Origin: a virus
Virus record (IMG/VR): IMGVR_UViG_3300043539_000496
Coordinates: 1 to 64,000 of that record
Length of the DNA: 64,000 nucleotides
Direction: 5' to 3' (one strand)
The notes under the pieces are model-generated. The model was not told the DNA's origin. It did no database searches and worked only from the letters and a program-made list of their open reading frames with translations. Below are positions 16,391 to 53,186 of the stretch, piece by piece. The position numbers and the translations under genes are program-made. Numbering within the stretch: the stretch's first letter is position 1; each line of letters starts with the position of its first letter.

Positions 16391-19300
16391 TTACAGTATA
16401 AAAGGGTTAATATAAATATATCCTGAAGGATTTACATTACCACCTTTCTTTTTAGTTCTTGTTTGACTTCCATACATTCCCATTCCAATATTTGCATTAG
16501 CTCCTGTGCTAGCAGTAGAACCTGCAGCAGCTGCTTTCTTAGCTTCTATACATGATTTTATAATTGCACTGTCTGCATTTGGATTAGCTTGAGTACATTC
16601 ATTTTTTGCTTTCTGCCAGTCAAATCCAGTACCACCACTACCTTGTCCTGTAAACTTTCTATTACCTGGTTGATAGAACATTCTACCACCTACTCCAGGA
16701 GAAACAGCATAGTTAGGATACATTTGGTTTAATGCATCTGTCTGCCATCTATTAGTAATAGCATTGGTATAATAGTTTCTTAAGTTGTTTCTCATTGCTA
16801 ATTTAGAATTATCAAACTGTTGGTTAGCAATAGTATTCTGATCATATAATTTTTGAGCAGATGCTTGTTTCAACATTGATTCTTGGTTAGCTATGTCAGT
16901 ACCTTTAAGTTCAAATTGATTTGCTATGTTAACATTAGCATTGTTGTACTTAGAAAGTATATCTGCAGCATTCTTAGCAGCTTGACCTTGTACACTAGAT
17001 GATCTTGCAGACAATGCTTGAGGTCCTGCAAACTGTGCCATACCTTGGGTTTGGATGTTTGCTTGTTCTGCATTAGCAGCAAGTTCTCTAGTAGGATCTA
17101 AGAATGTAGGTCTTGGTTGTTGTAGTTCAACTCCCGGTGCCCACGGCATATATTTCTTAATACCCATTAAGTCTCCAAATGCACCTGTAGTTTTAATAGT
17201 ATCTTGTAACCACCATTCAGCAGGAGGTCCTGGTACATCTACATCTACCTCAGTTTCACAAGGAGGACAGTTACCATTTGCATCTGGTGTTAAAGGAATT
17301 TTATTACCTTGAGTATCAAAACATGGACAAGGATCTTCTTCTGGTTTTGGACAAAGTGCAGGATCACATTTTCCTTGTGGATCTGCTGCACCATAGTTAG
17401 GACCTTTAGGATCAGTACATTGACATATTGTTTTAGGATCATCAAAAGTCATAGTTCTAATCCCAACACCTGGTACATGACCTATTGTTGAATTACCATG
17501 AGATGGTCTAGTTAGATCTCCAAAGTCATCAACTGGAGATATTCTAATTCCTTTGTTACTGGTATATATAGCAGACATTGATGATTCATCATCAACACCT
17601 CTTTGAAGATTACCGTATAAATTTCTTAATGCATATTGTGTATCAGGATCAAGTTTATCATAATCTTCAATAGTTCTTGCATAACCATGAAATGTTGCTT
17701 GTTGTAGTGCTCTTGTACTAGCATCATTTTCAAGTGGTTCTCCAATACCAGCAGATAGTTGTGTTACTGATAATTTTGGATCTGTAGCATCATCAACACC
17801 ACCATAAGTTTTTGCAAGATATCTTTTTGCTGCAAGAAAATCTGCTTCAGTTTTTATAGGTTGACCTGTTCCAGGATTTTTAATTACAATACCTTTATCT
17901 AGTGCAGCTTTGACACCACTCCAACTTCTAAATTCTCTTCCCCCATCACTAAATAATTCAGGATTAATTCCACGTCCTTGAATTTTAAGATTTCTTTCTT
18001 CATGCTGTAAAAATTGTTTTAATACTGTTGCTTTATCTGGTAAAGCATACCCTCTTTCTTCCCAAGTTGAACCTTGAACACCATGTTTATTTACATAAGA
18101 TCTTGTATCTTTTAATGCTTCTATTGTTTTATTATATATAGCATCTGCAACTTTTTCATCTTTTAAGTTTTGTTCTAATAAATAATATTGTGCAGCTGCA
18201 AATTTAGCATCATCACTATTAGAACCACCCCAATCATTTAAATCCATACCACCGGTGTCACTAGGTGCTACAGGATCAAATCCTTTAAGAGTTCTTGACT
18301 GACCTGATGCATCTATTACAGTAATAGGATCTGTAGTTTTATTTATTTGTTTATTTCTATATGCAGTATACACAGCTCTTTCATAATCTGCATCAGAAGC
18401 GTAGTCAGATCTTTTTATTATTATACCATTATTTGCTTTAGGTAGTGGAAACATTGGTCCTGATCCAGGAATAGGTTTTGGTCTACCTTGATAATTCTGA
18501 GACATACCAGATCCCATAGCCATACCATACTCTGCTTCAGGAATATCTTCTTCATCATAGTCTGGTTCATCATAAAACGGCATATCATAACCACCCATAG
18601 ACATACCATACATAGCCATAGGAGCTTGTTGTTGCATCTGTTGTTGCATCATCATGTCCTCTTCAGACATTTGTGGTTCTTCTTGACCACCTTCTAACTC
18701 TTGTATAGTTTGTTGTATAAGACCAACTGCTTCTTCTTGTGAAGCACCTAACTGCATAAATACTTCTACTATAGCTTCAGGAGGAAGTTGATTTTCTAAA
18801 AGACTTGCAACTATTTCTTGAGGATCTACACCTTGTTCTAGTGCAGCACTAACTTCTTGAACAATTTGCATCATGTCATCACCACCTTCTTCTTGTGGTT
18901 GCTCCATCATTTGTTGTTCCATACCTTCTTCTGCTCTTCTCAATCTCCTCATACCACCACCATACATCATCATTTCTTCTGGAGATGGTTGCTGCATTTG
19001 TTGTTCTTCAGGTTGTGCAACAGGTTGACCTTGATTCATTTGTTCTGCTGCAGCAATTTGATCTTCTGATTGCATTGTTTCTTCAGAACTCTTTTGTTGA
19101 GCATACTTAGACTCTAGTTGTTCTGTAAGTTGTTTAATCTCTTGTTTAGGTAATACTTGTTCATCAGTAATACCTTTTGCTTGCATACAAGGTCTAGCAA
19201 CAGCAGGAATACCTTGAGGGAATCCTTTCTTTGCTTCTTGTGCAAGTGCAAGACATCCAAGTTTAACAACAAACTTTTTAATCATTAACTCAGCTGTTGT

Positions 19301-19771
19301 TCTATCTAATTTATCTGAGTTAGGATCTTCTAGAATTTTTCTATATTTCTGTATGTCATATTGTTTAGCAAGTTCTGCAGGAGTATATGCTTTACTAGTT
19401 CCTGCTTTACCAAACATTTCAAGTATCTCAGGATCTTTAATTCTCATACCTCTAGTATCACTAAAGATAAAAGTATCATCAGGAAGATTTAAAGGTACAC
19501 CACCTGCATGGTGTCTTGGTCCTTTAATAATTTTGTGTTCTGGAAATCCATCACCATTGATATCACCATATACTGTTTCACCTCCTTCTGCCTCTAGATT
19601 TGCTTCTTCTCTAGGGACAGCGGTGATATATTTACTTTCCTTAAGTTTTGGTGCACCAATATATGCATTATAATCCCTACCTCCCATTGCAGGTACATCA
19701 TTAACTAATGCTCCTTGAACTTGATATCCAGTTCTTGCTGTTGGTAATTTTTTTATTTTAACTTTTATCAT
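16391..19771 (-). CDS. Gln-rich modular virion/cargo protein with calcium-loop-like and Cys-rich segments
   Basis: A 1126-aa mosaic. It starts MIKVKIKKLPTARTGY, the basic 'I-x-LP' signature shared with neighbours. Residues 58-118 (AEGGETVYGDINGDGFPEHK, HHAGGVPLNLPDDTFIFSDT) match a conserved block I recall from structural proteins of Bacteroidota phages; DINGDG resembles a calcium-binding loop. Residues 230-400 are Gln/Met/Glu-rich. Within them, residues 270-283 (YGGGMRRLRRAEEG) and 296-366 are closely similar to part of the 1315-aa neighbour (about 37 of 71 identical by hand alignment). A Cys-rich stretch of CxC and CPxC pairs sits near residues 770-850. The C-terminal 250 residues are rich in Ala, Gln and Asn and likely helical. 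No enzyme motif was seen. Probably virion cargo or a structural linker. Confidence 0.8.
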   Translation of the reverse strand: MIKVKIKKLPTARTGYQVQGALVNDVPAMGGRDYNAYIGAPKLKESKYITAVPREEANLEAEGGETVYGDINGDGFPEHKIIKGPRHHAGGVPLNLPDDTFIFSDTRGMRIKDPEILEMFGKAGTSKAYTPAELAKQYDIQKYRKILEDPNSDKLDRTTAELMIKKFVVKLGCLALAQEAKKGFPQGIPAVARPCMQAKGITDEQVLPKQEIKQLTEQLESKYAQQKSSEETMQSEDQIAAAEQMNQGQPVAQPEEQQMQQPSPEEMMMYGGGMRRLRRAEEGMEQQMMEQPQEEGGDDMMQIVQEVSAALEQGVDPQEIVASLLENQLPPEAIVEVFMQLGASQEEAVGLIQQTIQELEGGQEEPQMSEEDMMMQQQMQQQAPMAMYGMSMGGYDMPFYDEPDYDEEDIPEAEYGMAMGSGMSQNYQGRPKPIPGSGPMFPLPKANNGIIIKRSDYASDADYERAVYTAYRNKQINKTTDPITVIDASGQSRTLKGFDPVAPSDTGGMDLNDWGGSNSDDAKFAAAQYYLLEQNLKDEKVADAIYNKTIEALKDTRSYVNKHGVQGSTWEERGYALPDKATVLKQFLQHEERNLKIQGRGINPELFSDGGREFRSWSGVKAALDKGIVIKNPGTGQPIKTEADFLAAKRYLAKTYGGVDDATDPKLSVTQLSAGIGEPLENDASTRALQQATFHGYARTIEDYDKLDPDTQYALRNLYGNLQRGVDDESSMSAIYTSNKGIRISPVDDFGDLTRPSHGNSTIGHVPGVGIRTMTFDDPKTICQCTDPKGPNYGAADPQGKCDPALCPKPEEDPCPCFDTQGNKIPLTPDANGNCPPCETEVDVDVPGPPAEWWLQDTIKTTGAFGDLMGIKKYMPWAPGVELQQPRPTFLDPTRELAANAEQANIQTQGMAQFAGPQALSARSSSVQGQAAKNAADILSKYNNANVNIANQFELKGTDIANQESMLKQASAQKLYDQNTIANQQFDNSKLAMRNNLRNYYTNAITNRWQTDALNQMYPNYAVSPGVGGRMFYQPGNRKFTGQGSGGTGFDWQKAKNECTQANPNADSAIIKSCIEAKKAAAAGSTASTGANANIGMGMYGSQTRTKKKGGNVNPSGYIYINPFIL

Positions 19772-19781
19772 TTTAGATATA

Positions 19782-20531
19782 TTAAATATAATCTACTTCT
19801 CCTCCTGCTTTTAAAAATGCTTCTAATTCTGGAATTGACATTGTAACTTCATCTCCTATGTTATAACTATTTACACCACCATCTTGTAAAAATCCTCCAA
19901 GTTGTGCACTGTTACCACCAAAGTCACCATAAGTAGAATAACTATTTCTATCAGATCCCATCTCATCAAAATTCTGTAATCCTGCTTTATGACCAAAGTC
20001 TGTCCATGCACCTCTATATTTATTATATTGAGTAGCAACAAAGTTTGCAGGATTAACAGTATTTAAAATCATTGCTTTTTCTCTCCCTCTATTTTGAAAA
20101 TTAGTTATTGCTCCTAACACACCTTTAGTAGCAGCATTAAATTTGTTTACCCCTTTTTCAAAATTTGTGTTTCTCATTTTTCTACTTTCAACAGCTACTA
20201 AATTAGATATTTTATTAGGTGCCTTTTCTTGTTCTAATAATTTAGGTTTTAAAGTAGGCATTTTATCTGGTGTATCTAAATTAAAAGGTACAATAGAACT
20301 AGAAGGTGCTGTATTACTATTGTAATCCATTATATTACGTACATGTTTATTGTAAGGATTTACAGAATTACTTTGAATATTATCAGGTACACCATTTTTA
20401 TCTGCATCATAAGGATCATTGATATTTCCTAAGTTCATATCAAAATTAAAATTTCCATCAGGAAAGTCCCATGAACCAGAATCATTAGCTCCACCAGGTA
20501 AAAATCTTCTTAATTGTTTTTTACTATACAT
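19782..20531 (-). CDS. 249-aa virion-associated protein with GG motifs and calcium-loop-like segment
   Basis: Begins MYSKKQLRRFLPGGAND, a short basic stretch ending in LPGG like the N termini of the larger neighbours. Residues of about 40-52 (DPYDADKNGVPDNIQ) have the DxDxNGxPD pattern of thrombospondin type-3 calcium repeats. The C terminus, IGDEVTMSIPELEAFLKAGG followed by EVDYI, has the same layout as the LTxxEIxxYVxGGYIVE tails of the 1412- and 1658-aa proteins: a beta strand, a short acidic helix, then GG and an acidic end. Further double-glycine sites are FGGNSAQLGG and DGG. The gene is packed between the two Gln-rich giants, with 1-10 bases on either side. No enzymatic motif is visible; function unknown. 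A small member of the same cargo set is the best guess. Confidence 0.75.
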   Translation of the reverse strand: MYSKKQLRRFLPGGANDSGSWDFPDGNFNFDMNLGNINDPYDADKNGVPDNIQSNSVNPYNKHVRNIMDYNSNTAPSSSIVPFNLDTPDKMPTLKPKLLEQEKAPNKISNLVAVESRKMRNTNFEKGVNKFNAATKGVLGAITNFQNRGREKAMILNTVNPANFVATQYNKYRGAWTDFGHKAGLQNFDEMGSDRNSYSTYGDFGGNSAQLGGFLQDGGVNSYNIGDEVTMSIPELEAFLKAGGEVDYI

Positions 20532-20532
20532 A

Positions 20533-23500
20533 CTATTTCTTTTTAGTAAATGGTTTAATTATTTTTTTACCTAAACTTTTATAATAATCTATTGGTGCTC
20601 CAAATGCTTGATCAAATCCTTGATTCAATCTATACTTCATTGCAGCTGAACTAAATTTAACTTCTTTAGGTCCTGACTTCTTTTTTTCTTTTCTTTCTTG
20701 TTTTTTGTCAGAATCATTAGATTTATTTTCTGAAGTTGACTTACGACCTCTTCTACCACCATAGTAAGAATCAATTATTGTTTGTAGTTCTTCTTTTCCA
20801 TAAGATTTATTTGGATCATAAATTCTCAATGTAGGTGAAAACCAATTCTTTTTAAATTTAGCAACAGGTTTTCCTAAAGCAGTCAAATCTCCCATGTAAG
20901 GCATACCTGTATTTAAACCATAGGCTCTCAAGACTCTTTCATCCATAGATCTACCATTCCATAATCCTAATGTATTTAATAATCCTGGAGCCGATCTTAC
21001 CAGTCTTGGATTATATCTTATACTTGCAACAGGAACACATCTATTTAATTGTGCATTCCATATTGTACCAGGACCACATTCATTAGTTGTATTAGTATTA
21101 AGATTAAGATTTTGATTTGGATCATCTTGGGGTATGTCACGAGATTCTAAATACTGATTGTATAATTTAAATCTATTTACATCATTTGCTGATATTAAAA
21201 AATCTTGTATCCAATCATTATAATCTTGCTCTTCTTGTGGATCAGAACTAAATTGATGCATCATTTGCTGATCTTCTGGAAGACGTGGATCATAAGGAGT
21301 TGGATCATTAGTTTCATATGCTCCTGGCCAATTATCTGGACTTGTGTAGTCATCTAACCACTCTTCATAATTCATATATGGTACTTGTGGTTTATATTTT
21401 TCATTTAATTTTTTTATGTCTTCCGGAGTAAAAAAACCATATTTTGGAAAATTACCATTTTTTGCTTCAGGTAATGGATTATTTGATTCATAATAATCTT
21501 CATCACCACCATAAATAAATCTTGTAAGTGGATTTTCTACATCCATATTTACATAACCACCCATTTCACCAAACTGAGGTTGTTGCATCATTTGATTATC
21601 TTGAGGTTGTTCTTGTTTATTATCACCTATAAAGATATTCATAAGCTGAGGATCACCAGATTCTTGAACAAGTTTATACAAATCTTCTGTAGCTCTTTTA
21701 TCAGATTGCTGTTTAAGAGTACTGATAAAATTACTATATCTTTTAGAAACTTGACCATCATCCATCCTACTACCTTTTCCTAATGAAGTATCTTGTGCTT
21801 CTCCACCAGGTTCAAACATTTGTTGGACTCTTTTAATAAACTTCTTTTTATGAGCCCCACCATGTTTTTGTCCAGGTAAATCTCCAAACATACGACCATA
21901 ACCTTTATCATGTATAGTATCTCCACTAGGAGAAACATACATAGAGTCATCATATTTATTTTCTCTCCTTAAAGGAATATCAATCCCAAAACCTAATGTA
22001 TCAAATGATCTACCTGCTCCAAATTTATTCCATGTAGTATCTGCAGATGGTGTACGATTTTGAATCATACTTTTATCTCTCATAACATTATCTCCTGGAT
22101 CTTGATATAAATTATATCCTATAAGACCAGCACCTGTTAAAAATCCTGCTGTTCCTAAAAAGTTTCTACCAGTACGGAAGTTACGATCTTTAAGTAATTG
22201 ATAGTCTGCATACTGTGCACCAAATGGTTGATCTCCAAATGTCATTCCTCCTGGTACTTGTTCAGGTCCTATTTCTCTTTGTCTTCCTAAGAAATCTGCA
22301 GTAACCTTATCAGCATTAGGATAAAATTTACTTCTTGCTGCAAATCCAGGATATATAAAAGGATAGAAAGGAGTCATTAAAGACCCCCTACCTAAAGTAT
22401 TCCAATAGATTCTAGCTAAAGACATAGGATCTTTCTTTAACGGTTCTTCAGAAATTACAGTAGGATACTTTTCTAATTTTAAATTAGGGTACTTTTTAGT
22501 AAAAGGAAAGGCAAATGGTTGATTATACCAATTTAACTGATTACCAGTATAGTAACTTTTTTTAATTTGTTCTAATGGCATTCCTGTTGATACATCAAGT
22601 ATCTGTTTATTTTGTGGATCTATGTAAAACTCATCTTTTATTACTACAGCATCTTTATCATAACCTTTTAATTTAGTTTTAACATCAGTTACAATAGATG
22701 CTTTTATAAAACCAGAAGCATCTTTTTCTAATTTTATTCTAGTATTATTATCTTTAGTATGTAAACTTAAAAAGTTTAATTCTGGAATTTTAGATGCAGG
22801 TAATGCTAATTCAATAGGTTTTTTACTTTTACCAAAACCATAACTAGTTCCTACATTTAAAATTGCTTCTGATAATTCAGGTCCTATATTAAATGCTAAA
22901 CCAGAGTTATATGTACCATCTGTATTTTTCTTAAGAACTTGAGGTTCATACTCTGGATTCTTAATTAAATTCATTATATCAACAAGAGGCAGAGTGGATG
23001 TAGTAGATGGTGCTACTTTTTCTTTACCTTTTTTTGTCCAAGTTGTAAGATAATTTATTCCTTGACCCAGTGCTTCTACACCTGCACCCATCCATGATCT
23101 ATTACTTAATGGATTTTGTGTATAGTAAGCATTTTGTACTCTCTCTATAAAATTAGGATTTAATACAGATTGTTGTGCTTCTCTAACTACAGTAGGATTA
23201 AGATTCTCTGTTATCTTTGGAGTTGTTGGTTCTGTTTTATTTGTTTCTGTTGTAGTTGCAGCTGCTTTTTTTCTTTTACGTTTTCCTGGTCCTCCAGGTC
23301 CTCCATTTGCATACTGATCAAGTGCACCACCATACATTCCTTGTGACATAGGTAATAAGTCATCAGGAATAGAACCATCTGCTACACCTTGATAATCTTG
23401 TAAATACATATCTAAAGGAGCAAATCTAGATTTATCATATGGTGTAGTTCCAGGAGTTTGTAAGATCATGCTATCTAAATCTTGAGCAAACATTTCTTGA

Positions 23501-24480
23501 TCACTCAATTGACCAGGATTAACATACTGATTAACTACCATGTCTTCTGGAGATAGTGTACTTTCATATGAATTATAAAAATCCTCAGCTTCACCACCAT
23601 CATCAAAGTAACCACCATACTGCATCATCTGTTCTTGACCACCTTGTGATTGTTGTATAACAGATTGTATTATCTGTCCTACTTGTTCTTGAGACATTCC
23701 CAACTCAACAAATATTTGCATTATTGCTTCTGGTGGAATTTGACCTTGTAATAATTGTGTTATGATTTCTTCAGGTCTACCACCTTGTTGAAGTGCTTGA
23801 CCAACTTGTTGCATTATCTGTTGCATTTGATCTCCACCACCTTGTTGTTGTTGAGGTTGTTGTTGACCTTGTTGCATTCTCATCATCTCTTCTTCTGATG
23901 GTTGTTGCATTCCTTGTTGAGCTCGTTTAAGTTTCTTTGTATAAGGACCTCCATACTTACTTATTTCTTGTTGTTGTTCTTGTTCAACAGCTCTTGGTTC
24001 ATTCAAACGATTTAATGTACTTTCATCAGTTTCTTCATCTGCCATAGAGAGTGCTAGTTCTTCATCTTCACCTGGTGTACCTGATCCTTCATTTCCTGGT
24101 AATGCAATCGGTGCACTATTTTCATCTTCTCCTCCTAATGATTGATCTTGAGCTTGAGGTTGTTCTTCTTCAGAAGGTTCAGCATATCCACTTTGTTCTA
24201 ATTGAGTTTTAACAATGGCAATCATTTCTTTTGCCATCATAGGATCTATACCATAATTAGTAATCAATTTTGTTTCTACAAAGTTTTCATCAGCTCCATT
24301 TACAAGATCTGAATAAACATTACCAAGTACAACTTTTAATCTTTCTTCAGGATCATTATTAGGACCTACTTGCATTCCCATATTTGCTTTTACAAGACCA
24401 CCATATAGAAATTTTGCAGTTTTATTATAGTAACCTGGTTTCTCACCTGGAAGTGCTTTTCTTATTCTTACTGACTTCAT
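20533..24480 (-). CDS. Gln-rich modular cargo protein (paralogous module shared with the 1126-aa protein)
   Basis: A 1315-aa protein starting MKSVRIRKALPGEKPGY, again the basic 'I-x-LP' signature, with YGGLVKANMG at 26-35. Residues 100-175 are acidic and low complexity. Residues 176-190 (YGGPYTKKLKRAQQG) and 214-284 form a Gln-rich module repeated in the 1126-aa protein. More double-glycine motifs occur at 288-296 and 383-397 and again in the C-terminal half. An NECGPGTIWNAQLNRCVPV hairpin-like segment lies about 160 residues from the C terminus. A hydrophobic stretch (FLGTAGFLTGAGLIGYNLY) near residue 780 could be membrane-active. The C terminus is Lys-rich. A candidate promoter precedes it, so it may head its own transcription unit. 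Function unknown; most likely an ejected or internal virion protein. Confidence 0.8.
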   Translation of the reverse strand: MKSVRIRKALPGEKPGYYNKTAKFLYGGLVKANMGMQVGPNNDPEERLKVVLGNVYSDLVNGADENFVETKLITNYGIDPMMAKEMIAIVKTQLEQSGYAEPSEEEQPQAQDQSLGGEDENSAPIALPGNEGSGTPGEDEELALSMADEETDESTLNRLNEPRAVEQEQQQEISKYGGPYTKKLKRAQQGMQQPSEEEMMRMQQGQQQPQQQQGGGDQMQQIMQQVGQALQQGGRPEEIITQLLQGQIPPEAIMQIFVELGMSQEQVGQIIQSVIQQSQGGQEQMMQYGGYFDDGGEAEDFYNSYESTLSPEDMVVNQYVNPGQLSDQEMFAQDLDSMILQTPGTTPYDKSRFAPLDMYLQDYQGVADGSIPDDLLPMSQGMYGGALDQYANGGPGGPGKRKRKKAAATTTETNKTEPTTPKITENLNPTVVREAQQSVLNPNFIERVQNAYYTQNPLSNRSWMGAGVEALGQGINYLTTWTKKGKEKVAPSTTSTLPLVDIMNLIKNPEYEPQVLKKNTDGTYNSGLAFNIGPELSEAILNVGTSYGFGKSKKPIELALPASKIPELNFLSLHTKDNNTRIKLEKDASGFIKASIVTDVKTKLKGYDKDAVVIKDEFYIDPQNKQILDVSTGMPLEQIKKSYYTGNQLNWYNQPFAFPFTKKYPNLKLEKYPTVISEEPLKKDPMSLARIYWNTLGRGSLMTPFYPFIYPGFAARSKFYPNADKVTADFLGRQREIGPEQVPGGMTFGDQPFGAQYADYQLLKDRNFRTGRNFLGTAGFLTGAGLIGYNLYQDPGDNVMRDKSMIQNRTPSADTTWNKFGAGRSFDTLGFGIDIPLRRENKYDDSMYVSPSGDTIHDKGYGRMFGDLPGQKHGGAHKKKFIKRVQQMFEPGGEAQDTSLGKGSRMDDGQVSKRYSNFISTLKQQSDKRATEDLYKLVQESGDPQLMNIFIGDNKQEQPQDNQMMQQPQFGEMGGYVNMDVENPLTRFIYGGDEDYYESNNPLPEAKNGNFPKYGFFTPEDIKKLNEKYKPQVPYMNYEEWLDDYTSPDNWPGAYETNDPTPYDPRLPEDQQMMHQFSSDPQEEQDYNDWIQDFLISANDVNRFKLYNQYLESRDIPQDDPNQNLNLNTNTTNECGPGTIWNAQLNRCVPVASIRYNPRLVRSAPGLLNTLGLWNGRSMDERVLRAYGLNTGMPYMGDLTALGKPVAKFKKNWFSPTLRIYDPNKSYGKEELQTIIDSYYGGRRGRKSTSENKSNDSDKKQERKEKKKSGPKEVKFSSAAMKYRLNQGFDQAFGAPIDYYKSLGKKIIKPFTKKK
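23810..23980. repeat. Gln-codon-rich low-complexity tract in the 1315-aa gene
   Basis: Imperfect CAA-type repeats encoding QQGQQQPQQQQGGG and nearby Gln/Met-rich sequence. A similar tract lies in the 1126-aa gene at about 18600-19080. The two tracts flank paralogous modules and may favour recombination between the genes. Confidence 0.6.
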
Positions 24481-24496
24481 AATAACATGTTATATA

Positions 24497-24510
24497 TAAA
24501 TATACTAAAA
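24497..24510 (-). promoter_or_regulatory. Candidate late promoter, TTTTAGTATATTTA
   Basis: Lies in the 58-base gap between the 1412-aa and 1315-aa genes, 16 bases before the ATG of the latter. It matches the TTTTAGTATATTA motif found at two other unit starts, with one T for A change. No matching -35 box is evident. Proposed only from recurrence and position. Confidence 0.4.
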
Positions 24511-24538
24511 TTTAATTTAATCAATAAACTTATAAAGT

Positions 24539-27500
24539 TTATTCTTCTTCTACAATGTATCCTCCTTGAACATATTTGTCTATTTCCTTTTTAGTAAGTT
24601 TCATAGCAATACCTCCATTTTTATTTTTCCAACCTGGTTGAGAGGTTATTTGATTCCAAGCATCTCTGCCTTTGAACGGTTTACCTTTATTTATATCTTT
24701 CATCAAATCTTGTTTAAACATTTGATGTCTTTTTTCTATTAGTGCATCCTGTAAAGCTTGTGCTTCTACACGGGACAAACCATAAACAGTACGTGATAAT
24801 GTATTAGAAATACTTTTATTTATTATATCATCAGCCCACGGTAGTCCTCGTAAACTTTCAATATAAGTAAATGGATTTTGTCTTCTTAACCAATCCTTAT
24901 CAAAAGCATTAAATTTTTGAGCACTTGGAAATAGAGAATCAAATTTAATATCTGGTTCTCCTAACACTGAAGCTTTAAATGATGAATAGTATTCACCAAC
25001 TGTTTTAGGAAAAGGTTTACCTTTTGCAAGAGCACTTAAAGCTCCAGTACCTAAAGGATCAATCATTGTATATCCAAAACCAAGTGTATCATTTATTAAT
25101 TTTCTTTGTGCTTGATTGCTATAAAATTTACCCTTTGGAAATTTAAATTCATCTGTAAATATTTCAGCCAAATGTGGATATTTTTTAATAAATCCAGGAA
25201 CATCATCAACAGAAAGAAAATCCATAAATTCATTTTGATGTTCATCAAATTGTTTTCCTAATTCTACAGATTTATTTAAATCAGCATCAGTCCAAAAGTC
25301 AGATTTAGATAATGTTTTTTGTGGTCCATCAAATGCATTCATCATAAACCTCCTTGCTTCCCAACCATCTGAAAAATCTTGAAATCTAAAATCTCCTAAT
25401 TTATTTAAATCAATACTAATATCAGAGCCCTTAACATTATTTACATTCTTTTCTAATTCAGGAAAATTTGTTTTTGTTTCTTTAGTTTGATAATCTAAAA
25501 AATCAAGTATACCTTGTTGTTGCCAATTTGCAGCATTACCATAATCTAAAGGATCAACATTATATATTGCTTCACCAAGTTTATTTTTATCATATGGAAT
25601 ACCTTCAAAATTAATTGGATATTCTCTTTTAACATTGCCATAGGTAGATATTCTTTCTGTAGGAGTAAAAACATTTCCAGCTTTTATTCCTGTGTTAAAA
25701 ATAGTACTACTTGGTCTATATACATCTCTACCAAAAACTGTTGGAGTTTTTCTTCTAAGTCTAAAACTTCCAGGAGGCCATCCCATTTTTGCTTGAGGAA
25801 GATCTCCACCTTCTTTTCTTAATCTTAATGGTTCTTTAGGATTTAATCCAGTAGCATTTAATCCAGAACGATTAAAATATTGTTGATTAAACAATGCAGG
25901 ATCCATTTCAAAATTATATTTATCATTTAATAATCTTGTACCAGCAGGTAAATAATTTGGTGCTCCACGTAGTAAGTCTTTACCAAATCCTAAAGCAGTT
26001 TTTCCACCATGTAAACCTATCATTCCTGCCATACCTAAACCAAATAAATTTTCTTTTACTTTATCTGAATCCAAATGTGCTAAGAAATCTAATGATGATG
26101 ATGAAGGTAAAGAGCTTGATATGTGTGCTTTTTCTTTTGCTTTTTGTATTTCATTCCATATATTTTGACCAGCTTCAACTCCAAACCCTTGTATTTCTCT
26201 ACCTGTGTATGGATCTATTTCTCCAGTTGGCATAAATGCATCTTTAACAAACAGACCAGTTAATCCGGCACCAGGTGTTACTAAATTTCTAGTAGCATTA
26301 TATAATGCATTTTTTGCTAACCCTCTTGCCCCTACTTTAGATAAAGTCTTTACACCAGGTAATAGTTTTGTAGCAGATGCTGCTCGTAATACTTTTGATA
26401 CAGGTAAAACAGAAAATGCTGTATTTAATAAAACATCTCCAACTTCTTGTTCTGGATCTCCTTCATATAAATTACGTAGACCAATACCAACATTTGAAGC
26501 AAAATGTGCAGGGTTAAATAAATTAGCTATTTGAGTTCCAAAATCACTATTTAAATTATTATATCTATCTAAAAATAATCTTGACCCACCTGGACCAAGA
26601 TTTGCTTCCCATGCTCCTATGTTTCGTGATGTAGGTGCATCAGGCATAAGACCAATCATAGGATCTGCTGCATTTCCTGATGCCCATTGATTTAAAGTAT
26701 AAACAGGTTGATTAGCTAAACTACTTATTTGTTGACCAGCCTTTTCTAAAAAATTAGATAAGGTAGGTTTTTTCCATAATGAATTTTCATCTTGGTAGTC
26801 TTGCCATTTTTTTTCTGCACGGTTCTTTTCTACATCATATATCTTTTCACCATACTTAGGATCTTTATTATAATTTGCTATAAACTCTTGTGCTTCAGGA
26901 GTTTGTTTCCATACATCAAAAGGCAATGTTTCATATTCTTCTTCTCCTGTGTACTTTGATCCATCATAACCTTTATAATTAAGACTTTCTGAACCAGGAT
27001 TTATTTTATTTGTATAAGCATATCTAAGAAGTTCTTCTGCTGCATTATTTCTTGCATCACCCATAGCTTTTTTAAGATCACCTGAGTTTTTATATGCTTC
27101 TGCATTTCTGGTACCTTTATAGTCTAAATAAACAACAGAAGCTTTGTCACCATAATTACCAAGTTGTGAAACATCTAATTTTTTATCATGATAACTTTTT
27201 ACACTACCATCAGCATTATATTCTTTAGGAACTTTTGCTATATAACTACTATTAAATGTTTTAGCTTTTGTAAAAAAGTCATTTAATATTTTTGCTCTTT
27301 TAGCAACATCATCTTGTGAGTTTCCTTCAATAGAATTTATTTGTTGAGCAGCTTTGTTAAACTCATTTGCATAATCATTATGAACACCATATACAGGAGT
27401 TATGGGTGCTATTTTAGTACCAGTATTATTATAAACAGCATCATACAGCATATTATTCATTTCAGTATACCTTTCTTGCTGCTGATCTACTTCAGAATCT

Positions 27501-28777
27501 TTTATTTGTTTTTCTGTATCTGTGTAATATTTATTTGTGTCACTTTTGTATTGAGATAATATATTAGCTTCATTTTTATCACCAGCTCTATTACCAAAAC
27601 CATAACCATAGTAAGTTGTATTTTTACCATTTACATTTATATTTCCTTGAGCATCTGTTTTAACTTTTTTAGAATCTACTTTTTCCCAATTAAAAGGATT
27701 AATATATTCTTTACCACTTTCTTTATCTTTACTAAATGGACTTTCAGATTCTTTTGTTTCAGTTCCTTTAATTAAACTAAAATCATCATTGGCATATTCA
27801 TTAGTATACTTGTATACATTTCCATACTTATCTTTCTTATACAATACACCACTGTAATCTACAAAATAATTATCAGCATTATTTTGAAAATCAAGATCAT
27901 TGGCAATTCCAGTAAATTGAGTAACACCTTGTTTTGAATTATAACCTGTTTTAACTAATTGTCTTTTAGCATCTTCAGCTGAATAACCTTGCTTAGTTAA
28001 ATTATTAATCATTTCAGCACCTTGTTTAATATGAAATTTATCAAGGGCTCCTAAGTAATCTCCAAATTCTGTTTGAAGTTGTTGAGCATTTAGTCCATGA
28101 TGTTTTTCAAATTCACCAGGTTTCATACCTGCCTGAGACATCATGTGTGCTATTCCTTCTTTAGGGTAAAGATTAAATTCATAATTACCATCACCCAAGT
28201 CTTTCTTTTCTACATAGTAATTTGCTCTATCAGGATCTTCAGTATTGTTATACCAAGCTTCAAAATTTGGATTAGATTCTACTTGTTCTTTAGATAAACT
28301 ATAATATGGTTTAAGAGTTTCTTTTTTATATTTATTACCTTTGTCTACAGCTTTTTGTATACCAGATATATAAGATTGATATTTATCTTTATCTTCTTGT
28401 TCTCTTCTGTTTTTGTTATATATATAATCACCTAACATCTTTGAAGCAAGTTCAGGATTTTCAAATGTACTATATGATTTATTTAATTTTGCTAATCTTC
28501 TATCAAAATTCTTTTGTGTCATTTCTGTATTTCTAGCTTCTAGAATACTAAGAATTTCATCTTCAGTTAAACAATTTCCTTCAAAATTTTCTCTTCCAGG
28601 AGGGCACTCTATACCTTGCACAACATCACTAGACATTTGATTCCAGTAAGAAGGTTGATCAACACCTTGGACTTCTACCATAGGTTGATCTTCATATGTT
28701 TTCTTTTTTCTTTTTGACCTATCAGTCTCTCCTCCTGGTGCATATTGTGGAATGCTTGTTATTCTATACTTTGCCAT
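24539..28777 (-). CDS. Large cargo protein with YAPGG start, membrane-like segment and GGYIVEEE tail
   Basis: A 1412-aa protein whose N terminus MAKYRITSIPQYAPGGE combines the basic 'I-x-IP' strand with the YAPGG motif. Residues 57-69 (ECPPGRENFEGNC) form a two-cysteine hairpin-like motif of a type repeated in neighbours. Residues 70-680 are hydrophilic, Lys/Asn/Tyr-rich and probably helical. Residues 780-850 and 911-935 are Ala/Gly/Leu-rich (LFGLGMAGMIGLHGG) and could enter a membrane. Residues 989-1000 (EGGDLPQAKMGW) carry another double-glycine motif at what looks like a module boundary. The last 25 residues, with LTKKEIDKYVQGGYIVEEE, match an internal segment of the 1658-aa protein at 16 of 25 positions. 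The start overlaps the stop of the 1658-aa gene by one base. No catalytic motif was found. A DNA-ejection role is inferred. Confidence 0.8.
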   Translation of the reverse strand: MAKYRITSIPQYAPGGETDRSKRKKKTYEDQPMVEVQGVDQPSYWNQMSSDVVQGIECPPGRENFEGNCLTEDEILSILEARNTEMTQKNFDRRLAKLNKSYSTFENPELASKMLGDYIYNKNRREQEDKDKYQSYISGIQKAVDKGNKYKKETLKPYYSLSKEQVESNPNFEAWYNNTEDPDRANYYVEKKDLGDGNYEFNLYPKEGIAHMMSQAGMKPGEFEKHHGLNAQQLQTEFGDYLGALDKFHIKQGAEMINNLTKQGYSAEDAKRQLVKTGYNSKQGVTQFTGIANDLDFQNNADNYFVDYSGVLYKKDKYGNVYKYTNEYANDDFSLIKGTETKESESPFSKDKESGKEYINPFNWEKVDSKKVKTDAQGNINVNGKNTTYYGYGFGNRAGDKNEANILSQYKSDTNKYYTDTEKQIKDSEVDQQQERYTEMNNMLYDAVYNNTGTKIAPITPVYGVHNDYANEFNKAAQQINSIEGNSQDDVAKRAKILNDFFTKAKTFNSSYIAKVPKEYNADGSVKSYHDKKLDVSQLGNYGDKASVVYLDYKGTRNAEAYKNSGDLKKAMGDARNNAAEELLRYAYTNKINPGSESLNYKGYDGSKYTGEEEYETLPFDVWKQTPEAQEFIANYNKDPKYGEKIYDVEKNRAEKKWQDYQDENSLWKKPTLSNFLEKAGQQISSLANQPVYTLNQWASGNAADPMIGLMPDAPTSRNIGAWEANLGPGGSRLFLDRYNNLNSDFGTQIANLFNPAHFASNVGIGLRNLYEGDPEQEVGDVLLNTAFSVLPVSKVLRAASATKLLPGVKTLSKVGARGLAKNALYNATRNLVTPGAGLTGLFVKDAFMPTGEIDPYTGREIQGFGVEAGQNIWNEIQKAKEKAHISSSLPSSSSLDFLAHLDSDKVKENLFGLGMAGMIGLHGGKTALGFGKDLLRGAPNYLPAGTRLLNDKYNFEMDPALFNQQYFNRSGLNATGLNPKEPLRLRKEGGDLPQAKMGWPPGSFRLRRKTPTVFGRDVYRPSSTIFNTGIKAGNVFTPTERISTYGNVKREYPINFEGIPYDKNKLGEAIYNVDPLDYGNAANWQQQGILDFLDYQTKETKTNFPELEKNVNNVKGSDISIDLNKLGDFRFQDFSDGWEARRFMMNAFDGPQKTLSKSDFWTDADLNKSVELGKQFDEHQNEFMDFLSVDDVPGFIKKYPHLAEIFTDEFKFPKGKFYSNQAQRKLINDTLGFGYTMIDPLGTGALSALAKGKPFPKTVGEYYSSFKASVLGEPDIKFDSLFPSAQKFNAFDKDWLRRQNPFTYIESLRGLPWADDIINKSISNTLSRTVYGLSRVEAQALQDALIEKRHQMFKQDLMKDINKGKPFKGRDAWNQITSQPGWKNKNGGIAMKLTKKEIDKYVQGGYIVEEE

Positions 28778-31700
28778 TATTTTATTTTTTCAAATGTATA
28801 ACCTAATTTTTTTAGTTTTTCCATAGTAGCTTTATTTATCTCATCACCTAGTTGGTAATCAGGTGTACCACCATATTGAGCTTGTTGAGGTGCATACTCA
28901 TCTATTGATCTTGATTCATTCTTTGCCATCTTATTAAGAAGCATTTTTAAATCTTGAGGACTATTTATAAATCTTTGAAAATCAATTAAAGCAGGAACAA
29001 ATGCATCTGAATTAGGATCAGTCCATCCTTTAGTTTTAGCTTTCTGATAAAAGTTTTTTAGATCATCATCTGTAATTTCTTGATCTGGTTTAAATCCAGC
29101 AAGTCTTCTTAATTCCATAATTCTCTTACTGATCTCCTCACCATAATTACCTGAGATGTAATCATAAAACTTTCCTTCTTCTTTTGATACTTTATTTTTA
29201 GGAACTAATGCTTGATTAACTAAACCTGTTTCATACTCTCTTAGTTTGTGTACAGGATGATTTTTCATTTTTTTATATGTATCCATTTCAGGATCTAGCA
29301 TAGAAGGAGACGTAAGGTAATGACCTTTTTCATGAAACAAAACTTCATCTCTAATAAAAGGAGACGTTATCTGTGAAGAATTTAAAGATATTTTTCCTGT
29401 CATAGGATTATACATACCTGAAGAATCACCTAATCCTTTAGTATCATAATCTATTTCAGGAAACTTTTCTGTTCTTTTTAATAGTTTCGGTCTTGCTTCA
29501 TTTAATAATTTTTGACCTTCTACATCTTGTATAACTCTATTAGTATACCAGTTCTTATACCATTCTTCAGCAGGTGTTTGTTCTGCAGATACATCTAAAA
29601 CACACTCACCGGTAGCAGTACTTCTAATATATCCTTCTGGACATGGTTCACCACCTTCAGCATATTGATTATCTTCTAAATTACTTTCTGCACTAAATGG
29701 ATTACCTAATAAAGCAGCTGTACCAGCACCTATTACATATGGAGCAAATGATGGAAGTTCATTCATTGTGTTAGACAATAAACCAAAGTTCTTAGGTTTA
29801 TTTGTCATTATATCAAAAATTCTAAGTGGAAACTTATCTTCTTTTTTTAAGTAATCCTTATAGTAATCTTTTATCATTTTAGAATTTACTTTTTGATAAG
29901 GATGTTTTATAATATTGTCTTGTAACATATTTTCTCTTAACTCAGCTAAAAAAGGACTTCTTTCAAAACCTCCATTAAGATTATAATAAGATATAGCCTT
30001 TTGTAAATAATTACCATCTTTATTTAAATGTTTATAAAAAATATTATTATTAGATGCATTAGACAAATCAAAATCTAATTGATTTTTTAAATCTAAACCA
30101 CCAAGTTTTTCATCTATTGATGTACGTCCTACTCCACGTTTAACACCTGGTAAATGAATTATCTCATGCATACCTACACTAGGTAATTCTTCATTAGTAA
30201 AAAATTTAGGATTTATAACAAAAGCATTTTGATTTCTATCATAGAAAGCACCACCTTGTGTATTAGAATCTTCTAATAATTTAGCATAAGTTTCTTCAGC
30301 TGTTTTGAGTTGATTATCTAAAGTTACTGAAGTATTAAAATAATCATTGTCACTTATTAAATTTTGCTCATGATATGAATCAATTTTATTTTGTTCAGCT
30401 ATTATATCATTTATAGTTTTTGTATAAGTAATAGCCTCTTGATTTAGATTTCTTGTATTTGCTAAATCAGAAACCATATCTTTTGAATCAAAAAATAAAT
30501 TAGCTTTTAAAGCAGGAGTAGTATTAATTAAATTTTGTAATCTTCTTTGACCTTCAGCTGAATTCCATAAATTAACAGTTCTATCTTGTACTGCCTTTAT
30601 AGTTTGAGCTGCTGACAAATTTGTTGCACGATCTTTTGAATTACCAATTGTTATTTTATTTATTCTATGTTCAGGTTCAGGTAGTTTACGAGACTTACGT
30701 AATCCTTTAGGGGGCCAACCTCCTGGTGCATAACTATCCAATTGTCCACCATATTTATCACTAACTAAAGTTGATTCTTGTCTTAGTTTTTCATCATAAG
30801 CTTTTCTCTGCATTAATTCTTCAAGTTGTGTATTGTATTCTTCTTTAGCAACTCTATTTCTTTCACGTAATTTAGGAAGTTCATTTTTAACATAGTTCTT
30901 CCAATCTTTTTTATATTCTCTTCTTGCCCTGTAATCATCCCAACTTGCAATTGGTACACCTCTAAAACTTGGAAATTTTACATTTTCTGCATTCTCTAAA
31001 TCTTGGTGCATCTTACTAGTTGCATCAATATATCTTTCATTCCAACCTTTACGTGATTTATACAATTCAGGAGTTCCCTTTTCTCTATCATACCCAGTTA
31101 TAAATCTTAGTAAAGGATCTTCTTTTTTATTTACAATTTTTGAAGATTTTCTTATTAAAGGTTGTGTATCATATCTTTGATTTAAAAATAACTTATATGT
31201 ATTCTTTCTTTTTGGATGTGATTTACCTTCTGGAAATTCATATCTAGAAATACCCAATCCCTCTAACTCTAATTCAGGTGTTTCATATGTAGGTATTTTT
31301 CTATCAAGAGACGGATCAGCATATGTATATTGTTTTTCAAAATCAATATTTTGTGCATCTTCATAACCATCAGCATCCTTTTTAAAAATTACATCAGGAT
31401 ATTCTTTAGTTACTAAAGATAAATTCATATTTTCTCTAACATAGTCATCTCCAATATCATAAGTTGAACCATGATAAAGTGAACATTCAGGACATGGTTT
31501 AGCTTCTATGTTACCTTTTTTTCTTTTCTTTTGATAATCATTAAATAATTGATTCTTGATATTATCTGGTATATATTCAGGATCTTCATATAATTTTTTA
31601 AAGGCATTAATTTCTTTACTCATCCTTTTAGTAAAGTCACTATTTGGATCTTGGTCTGCTATATCACCAGAAAAAGTTGAAAACTTATATTCAGAATCTG

Positions 31701-33753
31701 GATTATAAGTTTGTGTCTCTCCAATCTTAGTTTTTAAACCAGCTTTTTGTATTTTATCAAGATTTTCTTTTTCTTCTTGTTTAAGTATTTGCCATTGTCT
31801 GTACTTTTCATACTGATGTGAATCTTTAGAATTTACATAGTATGTATTACTAGACTTGTCATAACCTTCTTTTTTATTAGGATCAACTTCAACTTTATAA
31901 TTAAGATCAGGATAAAAAGGTACAGATGTTAAATACTCATTATTATCAGAATATATAGTGTATGATCCTGCTGGTTGAATATAGATATCACCATACTCAT
32001 CATCAAATTCAGTACGTGTGAGGTTTAAATCTTGTGGCCAGTCCGTATACTTTCTTTCAAGTTTACTTCTATCAATTACTTTTTTATTTTCATCAAGTAC
32101 ACCTGGTATAACTTTATAACCAATAGATTTGCATTTTCCTGTCTCAGGATCTTTTACATAACCATCAGGACATTTATCACCATATCCTTCACACCATCCA
32201 GTTTCTGGATTATATGTATATCCATCAGGACATCTAGGTTCTCCATTTTCATCCATCATTGGTTTTACAGCACCACCTGGTGCATACTGATTTAATTCAG
32301 GTACAGAAATATCATCTTCTACTATATAACCACCGTCAACATATTTTTGTATTTCATCTTCTGTAAGATTAATACTTATACCTCCATTTTTATTTTGGCT
32401 ACCAAAGGTTGTAGTTTTTACGTTATTATTAGAAGGTATAAATGGATCATTTTTAATTTTTTCATTAATTTCTTTCTGTGCTTTTTTTTGTTTGTATTGA
32501 TTTAGTGGAAACTTCATCCCTGCATTAGCAGAAAAACTTCCAGGCAGCATTAGACTTTGGTTATAGTTTACATTACCATAGAAATAACCAGGAAAATTCT
32601 TAGGCATAAATTTAGGTAAACCTTCTACACCTGCATTTAGATTAAAACCAAAATGTGGTCTTGTACCTATACCAGCTGTTACACTAGGGTTTACATTCCA
32701 TTTATAACTACCCGGTCTATAATTTTTTGAGTGATATTTATCACCTCCATAAAACTCAAGACCACCTTTTAATCCTAAACCAATATTGTTACTTGGATCC
32801 CAATCTAATTTTATTTCTCCTTCACCAGCTGCTTTGTAACCATGAGGTTGTTTAAATTTATCATAACGGTAATTAGCTGATAAACCTCCTACAACAGGAC
32901 TTTTTTCTACAGCTTTTCCAAAACCTTTTAAAAATTTACCAACACTTTCTTTAGGTTTTTCTTTTTCAGGATCCCATTTATCTGGACCTTCCCTATATGC
33001 TGAACCAGTCATCTCACCTGCATTGTACATAGCAAGATCATCATAATATCTTTCCCAGGCTCCCTCATATTGATCCTTACCCATTTTTTGTATTGCCTGT
33101 CCTGCAGCTTGACCCAAAGATGAATCATAAGGTTTTCCTAAATAACCTTTTAATGCCCAACCACTATCTTTGTTTTTTGATATATCTCTAGTCAATCCTG
33201 TAGTAAAGTTTACCCCATAAGAAGGATTTGACATTCCTATAGCTTTTGTGCCTTCTCCCAACAAACTTTTTCCAGAGGTAAAATCAGTAAGATTTTGTTT
33301 CATACCTATAGGATAAGCCTGTTCATTTGTCATATAAGGACTTATTCCTACTTCAGTATTCTGAATAGCTTTAACCATTCCTTTTGGCATCCATTTTGGA
33401 AGTATTCTTTTAGAATCACCATAATTTTTTTTCTTTGATCCTGGTGGCTCATCAGAATATCCTCCTGGTGCATATTGTATTAAACCACCTTCAGCATAAT
33501 ATTGAGCTCTTGGATCAAAGATTTTATTCTTTTTAGATTTAGGTTTCTTAAATAGAGGATGTTGTGCAAACAACCTATTTGTTGCTTCAAAACTTCTTGA
33601 GTATGATTTAGGACTTTTACCTTTTGGTAGACTAGGTCTTTTATTAGATCCACCCCTCTTAAAATTATTATCTAAGCCATTATTAGTATTAGTAGAATTC
33701 TTAGTTTTACTAAGATTTCTAACAGCGTCAATAAGTACTTTTTTATTATACAT
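28777..33753 (-). CDS. Modular cargo protein with two HExxH metalloprotease-like motifs and YAPGG boundaries
   Basis: A 1658-aa protein built of modules marked by YAPGG-like motifs at residues 86-98, 490-494, 1008-1012 and 1364-1368. Residues 1-85 are basic. Residues 190-420 alternate Gly and aromatic residues (GLGLKGGLEFYGG, VTAGIGTRPHFGFNLNAG), like strands of a beta-barrel. Residues 457-481 contain LTEDEIQKYVDGGYIVEDD, the tail seen at the end of the 1412-aa protein. Residues 508-541 hold two CPDGY...C hairpins and 1370-1384 a third. Two zincin-like sites occur: HEIIH at 1196-1200 and HEKGH at 1474-1478, each in its own module. A hydrophobic stretch (FAPYVIGAGTAALLG) lies at 1336-1350. A role in crossing or locally digesting the host envelope during DNA entry is plausible but inferred. 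It overlaps both neighbours by one base. Confidence 0.82.
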   Translation of the reverse strand: MYNKKVLIDAVRNLSKTKNSTNTNNGLDNNFKRGGSNKRPSLPKGKSPKSYSRSFEATNRLFAQHPLFKKPKSKKNKIFDPRAQYYAEGGLIQYAPGGYSDEPPGSKKKNYGDSKRILPKWMPKGMVKAIQNTEVGISPYMTNEQAYPIGMKQNLTDFTSGKSLLGEGTKAIGMSNPSYGVNFTTGLTRDISKNKDSGWALKGYLGKPYDSSLGQAAGQAIQKMGKDQYEGAWERYYDDLAMYNAGEMTGSAYREGPDKWDPEKEKPKESVGKFLKGFGKAVEKSPVVGGLSANYRYDKFKQPHGYKAAGEGEIKLDWDPSNNIGLGLKGGLEFYGGDKYHSKNYRPGSYKWNVNPSVTAGIGTRPHFGFNLNAGVEGLPKFMPKNFPGYFYGNVNYNQSLMLPGSFSANAGMKFPLNQYKQKKAQKEINEKIKNDPFIPSNNNVKTTTFGSQNKNGGISINLTEDEIQKYVDGGYIVEDDISVPELNQYAPGGAVKPMMDENGEPRCPDGYTYNPETGWCEGYGDKCPDGYVKDPETGKCKSIGYKVIPGVLDENKKVIDRSKLERKYTDWPQDLNLTRTEFDDEYGDIYIQPAGSYTIYSDNNEYLTSVPFYPDLNYKVEVDPNKKEGYDKSSNTYYVNSKDSHQYEKYRQWQILKQEEKENLDKIQKAGLKTKIGETQTYNPDSEYKFSTFSGDIADQDPNSDFTKRMSKEINAFKKLYEDPEYIPDNIKNQLFNDYQKKRKKGNIEAKPCPECSLYHGSTYDIGDDYVRENMNLSLVTKEYPDVIFKKDADGYEDAQNIDFEKQYTYADPSLDRKIPTYETPELELEGLGISRYEFPEGKSHPKRKNTYKLFLNQRYDTQPLIRKSSKIVNKKEDPLLRFITGYDREKGTPELYKSRKGWNERYIDATSKMHQDLENAENVKFPSFRGVPIASWDDYRARREYKKDWKNYVKNELPKLRERNRVAKEEYNTQLEELMQRKAYDEKLRQESTLVSDKYGGQLDSYAPGGWPPKGLRKSRKLPEPEHRINKITIGNSKDRATNLSAAQTIKAVQDRTVNLWNSAEGQRRLQNLINTTPALKANLFFDSKDMVSDLANTRNLNQEAITYTKTINDIIAEQNKIDSYHEQNLISDNDYFNTSVTLDNQLKTAEETYAKLLEDSNTQGGAFYDRNQNAFVINPKFFTNEELPSVGMHEIIHLPGVKRGVGRTSIDEKLGGLDLKNQLDFDLSNASNNNIFYKHLNKDGNYLQKAISYYNLNGGFERSPFLAELRENMLQDNIIKHPYQKVNSKMIKDYYKDYLKKEDKFPLRIFDIMTNKPKNFGLLSNTMNELPSFAPYVIGAGTAALLGNPFSAESNLEDNQYAEGGEPCPEGYIRSTATGECVLDVSAEQTPAEEWYKNWYTNRVIQDVEGQKLLNEARPKLLKRTEKFPEIDYDTKGLGDSSGMYNPMTGKISLNSSQITSPFIRDEVLFHEKGHYLTSPSMLDPEMDTYKKMKNHPVHKLREYETGLVNQALVPKNKVSKEEGKFYDYISGNYGEEISKRIMELRRLAGFKPDQEITDDDLKNFYQKAKTKGWTDPNSDAFVPALIDFQRFINSPQDLKMLLNKMAKNESRSIDEYAPQQAQYGGTPDYQLGDEINKATMEKLKKLGYTFEKIK

Positions 33754-45084: not shown

Positions 45085-46347
45085 TTAACAAGGGTTATTT
45101 AGATAAGTTAATCCAACCTGCCAATATTTTCTAGCACTACAGTCTATATATTTATTAGAACTTCCGTTAGGAGTTGTAATATATTCAATTGATGTAGGGT
45201 CTACATATTTTACATTGTGTGTACCATCCCATGCCTTGATTCCCATTTCTATTGCAGTGTTATCTATTCTATTTGCATAACCAAATATAAAATCACTTCC
45301 TACTTTAGTTCCTGCAAATACATGTCCTACAATCTTTCTTACCCCATTAAAATCTGCAATTAATGCAGAACCTGAATCTCCACTATATACGGGATTAGGA
45401 CATGTAGGAGATAAGGCAGGATCTGTTGCAGGATCTGTTTTTACATATGTAATCTGATCTGTAAATACTACTGGGGAAAATCCTCCTTGTTTTGCATACA
45501 AGATTGGAAATGCAGTAAAGATAGAAAAAATTCTAAGTGGACATAAAGGTCCTCCTTTTGGGCCTGTAGTTCTACCAGAACTATATATCATAGGATTAGT
45601 AATAAGCAAATCATCTATCTCATCAGAAGTAGCAAATGGTAAAGGATCACTATATGTTTCTCCACTTTGCATAACTGACTTAGATATAATAGATTGTTCT
45701 ATATCTGATTTTTGTAATGAAAATATAGCACAGTCTACTCTATTATCTGAGTTTGCTGATACAGGTACATACCTTAATGATAAACCTATATTATAATTTG
45801 ATGGTGGAATAAATCCACTTTCTCCATCTTGATAAACTGTATTTACTGGAGTATATTCATTTCTTATTAAACCTAACAAGTTTCTTTCAGAAGTTAAAAA
45901 TGAATCTTGTATAATAACGTGATTATTTGTTACTCCAACTAATGCATTTGTTTCTTCATGTACTGCAATAAATCCAAATGTACCTACTGAAAATACAGTG
46001 TTTGTAGAAGATATTGAAAGTCCACCTACTAAGGGTCTTGTTAAAGTTCTGTTTGCTGCAGAGTTAGGTCCTGCTACTTGTCCACAAAAAGCATTACATA
46101 CAAGTAATTCTGGCATAGGAGCTTCAAACACATCTGTTTTTATATCATCTGCACCAACAGATATTGTTCTAGGAATAATTTCTTCAGTAGATAGTTCAGC
46201 TAATGATTTCTTTTTTGCTACACCATATAGTATTGCTAACTCATTTGTTTGTATACCATTTATAAATTTATAACCATATGATATACTTGTAACATTTGGT
46301 AATGACATTGAAGCTAATTCTTTTATCTTTTCTTTAATGTGTTTCAT
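45085..46347 (-). CDS. Trypsin-like serine protease
   Basis: A 420-aa protein with a chymotrypsin-fold triad in the right order: His143 in VTNNHVI, Asp205 in RVDCAIFSL, and Ser325 in SGDSGSAL. The first 75 residues (SISYGYKFINGIQTNELAIL, then IIPRTI and DDIKTDVFE) look like the short domain before the catalytic part in bacterial nal1-like trypsin-family proteins. GTFGFIAV at 122-129 and VGHVFAG at 340-346 are expected strands of the two barrels. There is no signal peptide and no zymogen region, so the enzyme is probably built into or onto the virion. It lies between the 839-aa Cys-rich repeat protein (1 base) and the fibre gene. Possible roles are maturation of fibres or cargo, or cutting host surface or mucus proteins. 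Fold and triad are strongly supported; the target is unknown. Confidence 0.88.
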   Translation of the reverse strand: MKHIKEKIKELASMSLPNVTSISYGYKFINGIQTNELAILYGVAKKKSLAELSTEEIIPRTISVGADDIKTDVFEAPMPELLVCNAFCGQVAGPNSAANRTLTRPLVGGLSISSTNTVFSVGTFGFIAVHEETNALVGVTNNHVIIQDSFLTSERNLLGLIRNEYTPVNTVYQDGESGFIPPSNYNIGLSLRYVPVSANSDNRVDCAIFSLQKSDIEQSIISKSVMQSGETYSDPLPFATSDEIDDLLITNPMIYSSGRTTGPKGGPLCPLRIFSIFTAFPILYAKQGGFSPVVFTDQITYVKTDPATDPALSPTCPNPVYSGDSGSALIADFNGVRKIVGHVFAGTKVGSDFIFGYANRIDNTAIEMGIKAWDGTHNVKYVDPTSIEYITTPNGSSNKYIDCSARKYWQVGLTYLNNPC

Positions 46348-53184: not shown

Positions 53185-53186
53185 GA

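Follow-up and report, generated by a model that had tools for sequence, protein, structure and literature searches.

Four consecutive protein positions in one operon of a crAss-like phage, here called slots A to D, share a conserved architecture of short sequence tags, which is restricted to this operon and between which payload domains are exchanged from slot to slot. The tags are real, lineage-specific and modular, and the proteins that carry them are probably ejected. We put the probability that the products of slots A–C are modular internal virion (ejection) proteins, composed of head, payload and tail cassettes whose tags putatively dock or load them, at about 50%. These very large, fast-changing proteins are probably injected into bacteria.

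The window, that is, the whole stretch analysed, comprises 64,000 nt (positions 1 to 64,000) of the 67.6-kb IMG/VR virus record IMGVR_UViG_3300043539_000496. A hallmark search matched the genes for TerL (62188–63999), the portal (59437–62181) and the major capsid protein (56420–58039) to PHROG families, phrog_6547/phrog_6681 being matched by the portal and TerL. The best public-phage match of the capsid protein is Leptolyngbya phage Lbo-JY46 (28% identity), followed by distant, weak and partial matches to the Cellulophaga phages phi17:2/phi4:1 and to csAssE-Sib. We provisionally class the phage as crAss-like, from an environmental lineage. A muzzle-like 1856-aa gene is followed by slots A–D and then by the genes for a 1049-aa C2-like and a 2467-aa RNA-polymerase-like protein. 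The PHROGs search with the slot proteins of the window was empty, PDB searches gave nothing useful, and Rfam had no match in 12000–40000; slot D was not encoded on any of the bacterial genome contigs searched.

Head and tail modules of the slot proteins

The head module can be described as a basic strand followed by [LI]P-x-[AY]-x-x-G-G (for example, LPKAQxGG), and the tail module, at the very end of the protein, as GG-x-LTxxEIxxYVxGGYIVE. A first-pass annotation had quoted individual motif strings, all of which we located where it had placed them, and had reported that the C terminus of the 1412-aa protein resembles an internal site of the 1658-aa protein at 16 of 25 positions. This likeness holds, with 18 of 27 residues identical, whereas 1000 shufflings of the 1658-aa protein gave at most 10 matches and 1000 shufflings of the tail at most 11. 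Since 6 of the 18 identical residues use different codons, a fresh DNA duplication is excluded, and it is the peptide rather than the DNA that has been kept.

The basic N termini ending in LP and the internal double-glycine sites, which had been taken as separate signatures, do exist, but most of them are instances of one and the same motif, [LI]P-x-[AY]-x-x-G-G. Among three-residue gapped patterns, P.A..G shows the strongest over-representation in these proteins (102 occurrences versus 24 in shuffled sequences and 10.6 in an equal length of other proteins), which identifies most of these "LP" ends and "GG" sites as a single head motif; F..GG and Q.GG come next in this unbiased count. Some GG pairs lie in a folded domain instead, such as RHHAGG of the 1126-aa protein, which is invariant in relatives and inside the confident part of the model.

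Slot A encodes a 1658-aa protein (28777–33753; this and all slot features below lie on the minus strand) with at least two cassettes, two HExxH metallopeptidase-like sites, an internal tail-plus-head junction and a C-terminal tail. The internal tail KNGGISINLTEDEIQKYVDGGYIVEDD (32311–32391) was matched by a profile built from slot B tails only (iE 9e-11) and is directly followed by the head motif DDISVPELNQYAPGG (32272–32316), the same junction being found at the internal tails of relatives. Further head-type motifs are seen in the sequence at 33460–33498 (YAEGGLIQYAPGG) and 30718–30741 (LDSYAPGG). A zinc-site-like HEIIH motif (30154–30168) lies in a DUF6782-like region with a weak Pfam match (E=0.0036), and a second one, HEKGH (29320–29334), marks a second metallopeptidase-like domain; HExxH recurs in slots A and B of relatives, and no family scored above cut-off in the window protein. 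The C-terminal tail QYGGTPDYQLGDEINKATMEKLKKLGYTFEKIK (28780–28878; slot A tail profile, iE 3e-17) is present in all slot A orthologues, and slot A proteins begin without a head. A cysteine motif, CPxGYxxxxxTGxC, is repeated in the 1658-aa protein after GG sites (after residues ~497 and ~1367), and in relatives junctions are followed by a similar sequence, CPxGYxxD, and by a zinc-ribbon-like one, TCKKCGWTWDAADG.

The 1412-aa slot B protein (24539–28777) carries the N-terminal head MAKYRITSIPQYAPGG (28730–28777; orthologues have, for example, MAKYRITSIPQSLPKAQKG), an internal head-type motif KEGGDLPQAKMG (25781–25813) and the C-terminal tail KNGGIAMKLTKKEIDKYVQGGYIVEEE (24542–24622), the last identified by end alignments and tail profile. 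Slot C is split at 20529–20535 into a 1315-aa first part (20533–24480) and a 249-aa C-terminal part (19782–20531), which in relatives are fused into one gene of ~1100–1670 aa. The N-terminal head MKSVRIRKALPGEKPGYYNKTAKFLYGG (24397–24480) corresponds to MKKxVRIRKALPGExPGYYNKTAKFLKKAQMG in orthologues, and the downstream piece itself starts with a head-like MYSKKQLRRFLPGG (20490–20531). The looser tail version noted previously in the 249-aa protein proved to be the orthologous tail of this third gene, VNSYNIGDEVTMSIPELEAFLKAGGEVDYI (19785–19874; slot C tail profile, iE 6e-15), which in relatives ends the fused protein. In the mostly disordered 249-aa model it is the sole short element predicted with fair confidence (pLDDT about 70).

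Slot D encodes a 1126-aa protein (16391–19771) with a conserved N-terminal domain, a variable middle and a C-terminal helical region. Its head MIKVKIKKLPTARTG (19727–19771), kept in all relatives, is disordered in the model and lies outside the confident domain at about residues 45–205; its C terminus is KKKGGNVNPSGYIYINPFIL (16394–16453), and slot D orthologues end in GG-x-[YV]. An origin of the motifs as parts of unrelated globular domains, which the first-pass annotation had itself raised against its reading, is unsupported except for some GG pairs in the slot D domain: the slot D head is disordered, and the 249-aa tail sits in a mostly disordered protein.

The tags are common to proteins whose middles otherwise differ, in agreement with the modular use proposed earlier. 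The accompanying statement that the proteins have little else in common did not survive, as slots A and B swap payload domains between genomes and the 1126-aa and 1315-aa proteins share a helical stretch (18686–18865 and 23638–23817; 50% identity over 60 aa, E=1.6e-13). This stretch is Q/M-rich and recurs in slots C and D of relatives.

Distribution in relatives and held-out loci

We recovered and stitched 14 related records. In the complete operons, slots A, B, C and D always occur in one order, A and B being merged in some genomes; end alignments revealed constant N and C termini and middles that are often unalignable. A tail profile made from 12 slot B tails and searched against ~900 proteins matched the C termini of all slot B proteins and, between residues 302 and 1866, one internal position in nearly every slot A protein (iE 1e-6 to 1e-12), with no confident match outside slots A/B among these ~900 proteins. 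Slot C has its own tail type of similar look, so that slots A, B and C are all matched by tail profiles. Comparison of the types with hhalign (P 0.0016 for A–B, 0.0021 for B–C and 0.071 for A–C) is suggestive of kinship among the three. Terminal tails end 0–2 residues from the C terminus.

A further 63 loci, found by the slot D domain and excluded from profile building, served as a held-out set. Tails were detected in 53 of 62 genes one step upstream of slot D (the slot C position), in 52 of 57 genes two steps upstream (the A/B position) and in 0 of 192 slot-D and downstream genes, counts that are not fully independent because some loci come from near-identical contigs. Heads, scored in the first 50 residues and subject to the same dependence, occurred in 59 of the 63 genes at slot D and in 51 of the 58 at slot C, compared with 0/129 downstream genes and 12/764 other proteins. 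One scan yielded about 300 slot D-related loci.

Internal tails run directly into a head, as GGYIVEDISVPxLxxAQKGG or GGYIVEDLPKAQLG, and 40 of 52 distinct internal sites across both data sets fit this junction, compared with 15% of random stretches of the same proteins. When a degenerate junction DNA pattern was used to scan 2.9 million viral contigs, 24 matches were returned, all in this lineage. Twelve lay on contigs already assigned to the lineage; the other 12 contigs all carried slot A/B relatives, and 11 of them also a muzzle gene. The junction reads as the boundary between cassettes.

Payloads and the role of the tags

Between the tags lie SET domains, metallopeptidases, lysozyme/SLT/VanY domains, ADP-ribosyltransferases and GNAT domains. 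SET was found with Pfam in 6/19 and 7/42 slot A/B proteins of the two sets, and other slot A/B proteins have SLT transglycosylase, phage lysozymes, VanY, amidase, ART-PolyVal, GNAT or metallopeptidase; PHROGs families in relatives included "internal virion protein with endolysin domain", tape measure and tail lysozyme. The SET (lysine methyltransferase-like) payloads, for instance in L134:5420-11695, L102:10989-16214, L014:683-3481 and L140:14483-18838, are unusual for phage virion-operon genes. The slot A protein of one relative has SET above cut-off together with sub-threshold DUF6782 and CBM_14 matches. Payload domains have been exchanged between slots A and B across genomes. Homology breaks fell within 10 aa of a motif in 26.8% of cases versus 11.3% expected, a clustering that in part follows from the tendency of BLAST alignments to stop at conserved stretches and that was computed from alignment ends not mutually independent. 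Clustering of payload segments was uninformative because common subdomains chain everything together.

Ejected phage proteins typically carry envelope-cutting and protein-modifying enzymes. We infer an ejection role for the slot proteins because enzymes of both kinds sit among virion genes here as well, and the domain that slot B has in common with phi4:1 gp040, an annotated virion protein, supports it. Slots A, B and C each form a chain of exchangeable cassettes consisting of a head (LPKAQxGG type), a payload domain and a tail (LTxxEIxxYVxGGYIVE type), and slot D carries the same head as these cassettes. The slot A–C proteins would be packed in the capsid or tail and ejected at infection, after which peptidoglycan hydrolase payloads may help to cross the envelope and protein-modifying enzymes may act on the host. 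Less certainly, heads and tails would be putative docking peptides for a conserved internal surface, such as the portal, ring proteins, slot D or each other, a function that would suit short peptides with some order, fixed at the ends of disordered chains. Docking at the tags would load any payload placed between head and tail, and the C2-like and RNA-polymerase-like proteins would take another loading route.

The reading we favour is that the tags dock or load a single class of internal proteins; the explanation as a whole, ejection included, has roughly even odds, the docking part being the less certain. The stronger version is tentative: a transferable loading code, whereby any payload between LPKAQxGG and LTxxEIxxYVxGGYIVE would travel in the capsid or tail and leave it by ejection, with phages evolving by swapping host-acting enzymes between the tags.

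The main rival to docking is processing at the junctions, with heads and tails as maturation cleavage sites, cut at GG or at the tail/head border, that free payloads or remove a targeting peptide. Prohead proteases of T4 and giant phages carry out maturation cleavage of this kind, and the adenovirus protease cuts at GG sites. An internal tail plus head looks exactly like two genes with such ends joined, and cutting would give ends matching the terminal tails, which stop 0–2 residues from the C terminus; the strongly basic, GG-containing small proteins encoded close to the capsid gene also resemble processed core proteins. We nevertheless consider processing unlikely: no protease conserved among the 14 relatives was recognised, the sole nearby protease-like gene (45085–46347) has no BLAST match in them, HExxH domains occur in just 7 of about 25 slot A/B proteins, and cleavage goes unmentioned in the crAss001 structure paper (PMC10172136). 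The 45085–46347 product itself matches phrog_20754 and, weakly, NAL1_N.

It is also doubtful that the motifs are flexible, sequence-conserved linkers or recombination joints that permit domain swaps between slots and genomes and have no binding role. The payload swaps between slots A and B, the clustering of homology breaks at motifs and the disorder around the motifs in the slot D and 249-aa models agree with this, but the amino acids are conserved with different codons, and in most genes the motifs are strictly terminal, with heads at N termini, where there is nothing to link. Simple linkers or joints thus explain the internal copies, not the terminal ones.

The first-pass annotation had proposed a common code for virion-loaded proteins; its modular side stands, and the tags are specific to this operon, but a general loading signal for all internal proteins is very improbable, although small basic proteins encoded close to the capsid gene carry related motifs too. 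The 1049-aa C2-like and 2467-aa RNA-polymerase-like proteins have a motif density at the shuffled level, and downstream genes of the held-out loci carried the tail in 0/129 and the head in 0/129. Relatives of both families sit in the virions of other phages: crAss001 gp47, found in virions (PMC10172136), is a relative of the RNA-polymerase-like family (best E about 3e-9), and phi4:1 gp039, a virion protein according to its deposited annotation, is weakly related to the C2-like family, for which homology to Lbo-JY46 XAI97383 is better supported. Homology of the C2-like protein to gp46 failed its test. Because these families are untagged, the tags mark a protein class rather than all cargo; if they are an address, it serves a single class among the internal proteins.

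The small basic proteins form a GG-rich, very basic cluster at 52702–54971, with ends such as KKGGAIKRKKK and KRGGSVKSKTKKK, and most relatives have similar clusters with related motifs no more than about 5 kb from the capsid gene. They may be DNA-binding core proteins. One conserved member near the capsid gene (53992–54336) matches Pfam DUF6321 (E=6e-21).

Comparison with known systems

The slot proteins resemble the polyvalent proteins (PMC5512222), which are large and multidomain, combine disparate enzymes, are encoded with virion genes, are rapidly shuffled and are predicted to be co-delivered with DNA. Both groups include ART-PolyVal, peptidoglycan hydrolases and metallopeptidases, and the slots are likewise encoded among virion genes, between the muzzle and C2/RNA-polymerase genes in relatives, with packaging predicted. 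A difference is that few single slot proteins here were shown to have two enzyme types. The words linker and glycine are absent from the polyvalent protein paper (PMC5512222), and bracketing head and tail peptides seem undescribed there.

By position, slot D is the counterpart of crAss001 C1 (gp45; PDB 7qog/8ckb; PMC10172136), which follows the muzzle gene and precedes C2 and the RNA polymerase; in our lineage slots A–C intervene between the muzzle gene and slot D. C1 is located at the portal wing and inside the tail barrel. Its orthologues also begin with a basic stretch, contain repeated [FY]A-x-GG sites and end in a KGG-basic segment, and in crAss001 GG is concentrated in gp45, not in gp46 or gp47. 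However, C1 lacks an LTxxEI..GGYIVE tail and is one protein rather than four slots. Homology of slot D to gp45, plausible by eye and position, failed profile, shuffle and fold tests, which took in the portal-bound domain 425–552 of gp45: hhalign scored 19.2 (shuffled maximum, 22.4), and Foldseek gave no match with E<=0.001. We do not file slot D as a C1 member because neither profile nor fold comparison established homology.

The IPSNxITMxGV domain of slot B recurs (E=1.7e-9) in phi4:1 gp040, a virion structural protein annotated as detected by MS/MS. Both conserved ends of slot D also match gp040 weakly, but it has no tail module. The internal proteins of T4 offer a functional parallel, as a short N-terminal capsid targeting sequence is common to otherwise different injected proteins; in T4, however, gp21 removes that peptide by cutting at another motif, and the peptide has no internal or C-terminal repeats. 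In the limited open-access literature searched, we found no description of head/tail pairs.

For one class of proteins, the tags would provide a concrete, testable answer to how crAss-like phages choose the proteins borne in their virions, and new injected enzymes should, as predicted, be recognisable by the tags alone; the untagged C2-like and RNA-polymerase-like proteins must then load differently. A similar arrangement is found in Leptolyngbya phage Lbo-JY46: its capsid protein has only about 28% identity and its tail matches are weak (E 0.0004–0.02), but XAI97384/XAI97385 carry a head (MKIRIIGLPKAQIG) and a tail (QQGGYNLGEEIDLSPEEVAKLIELGYDFEVV) at the same operon position.
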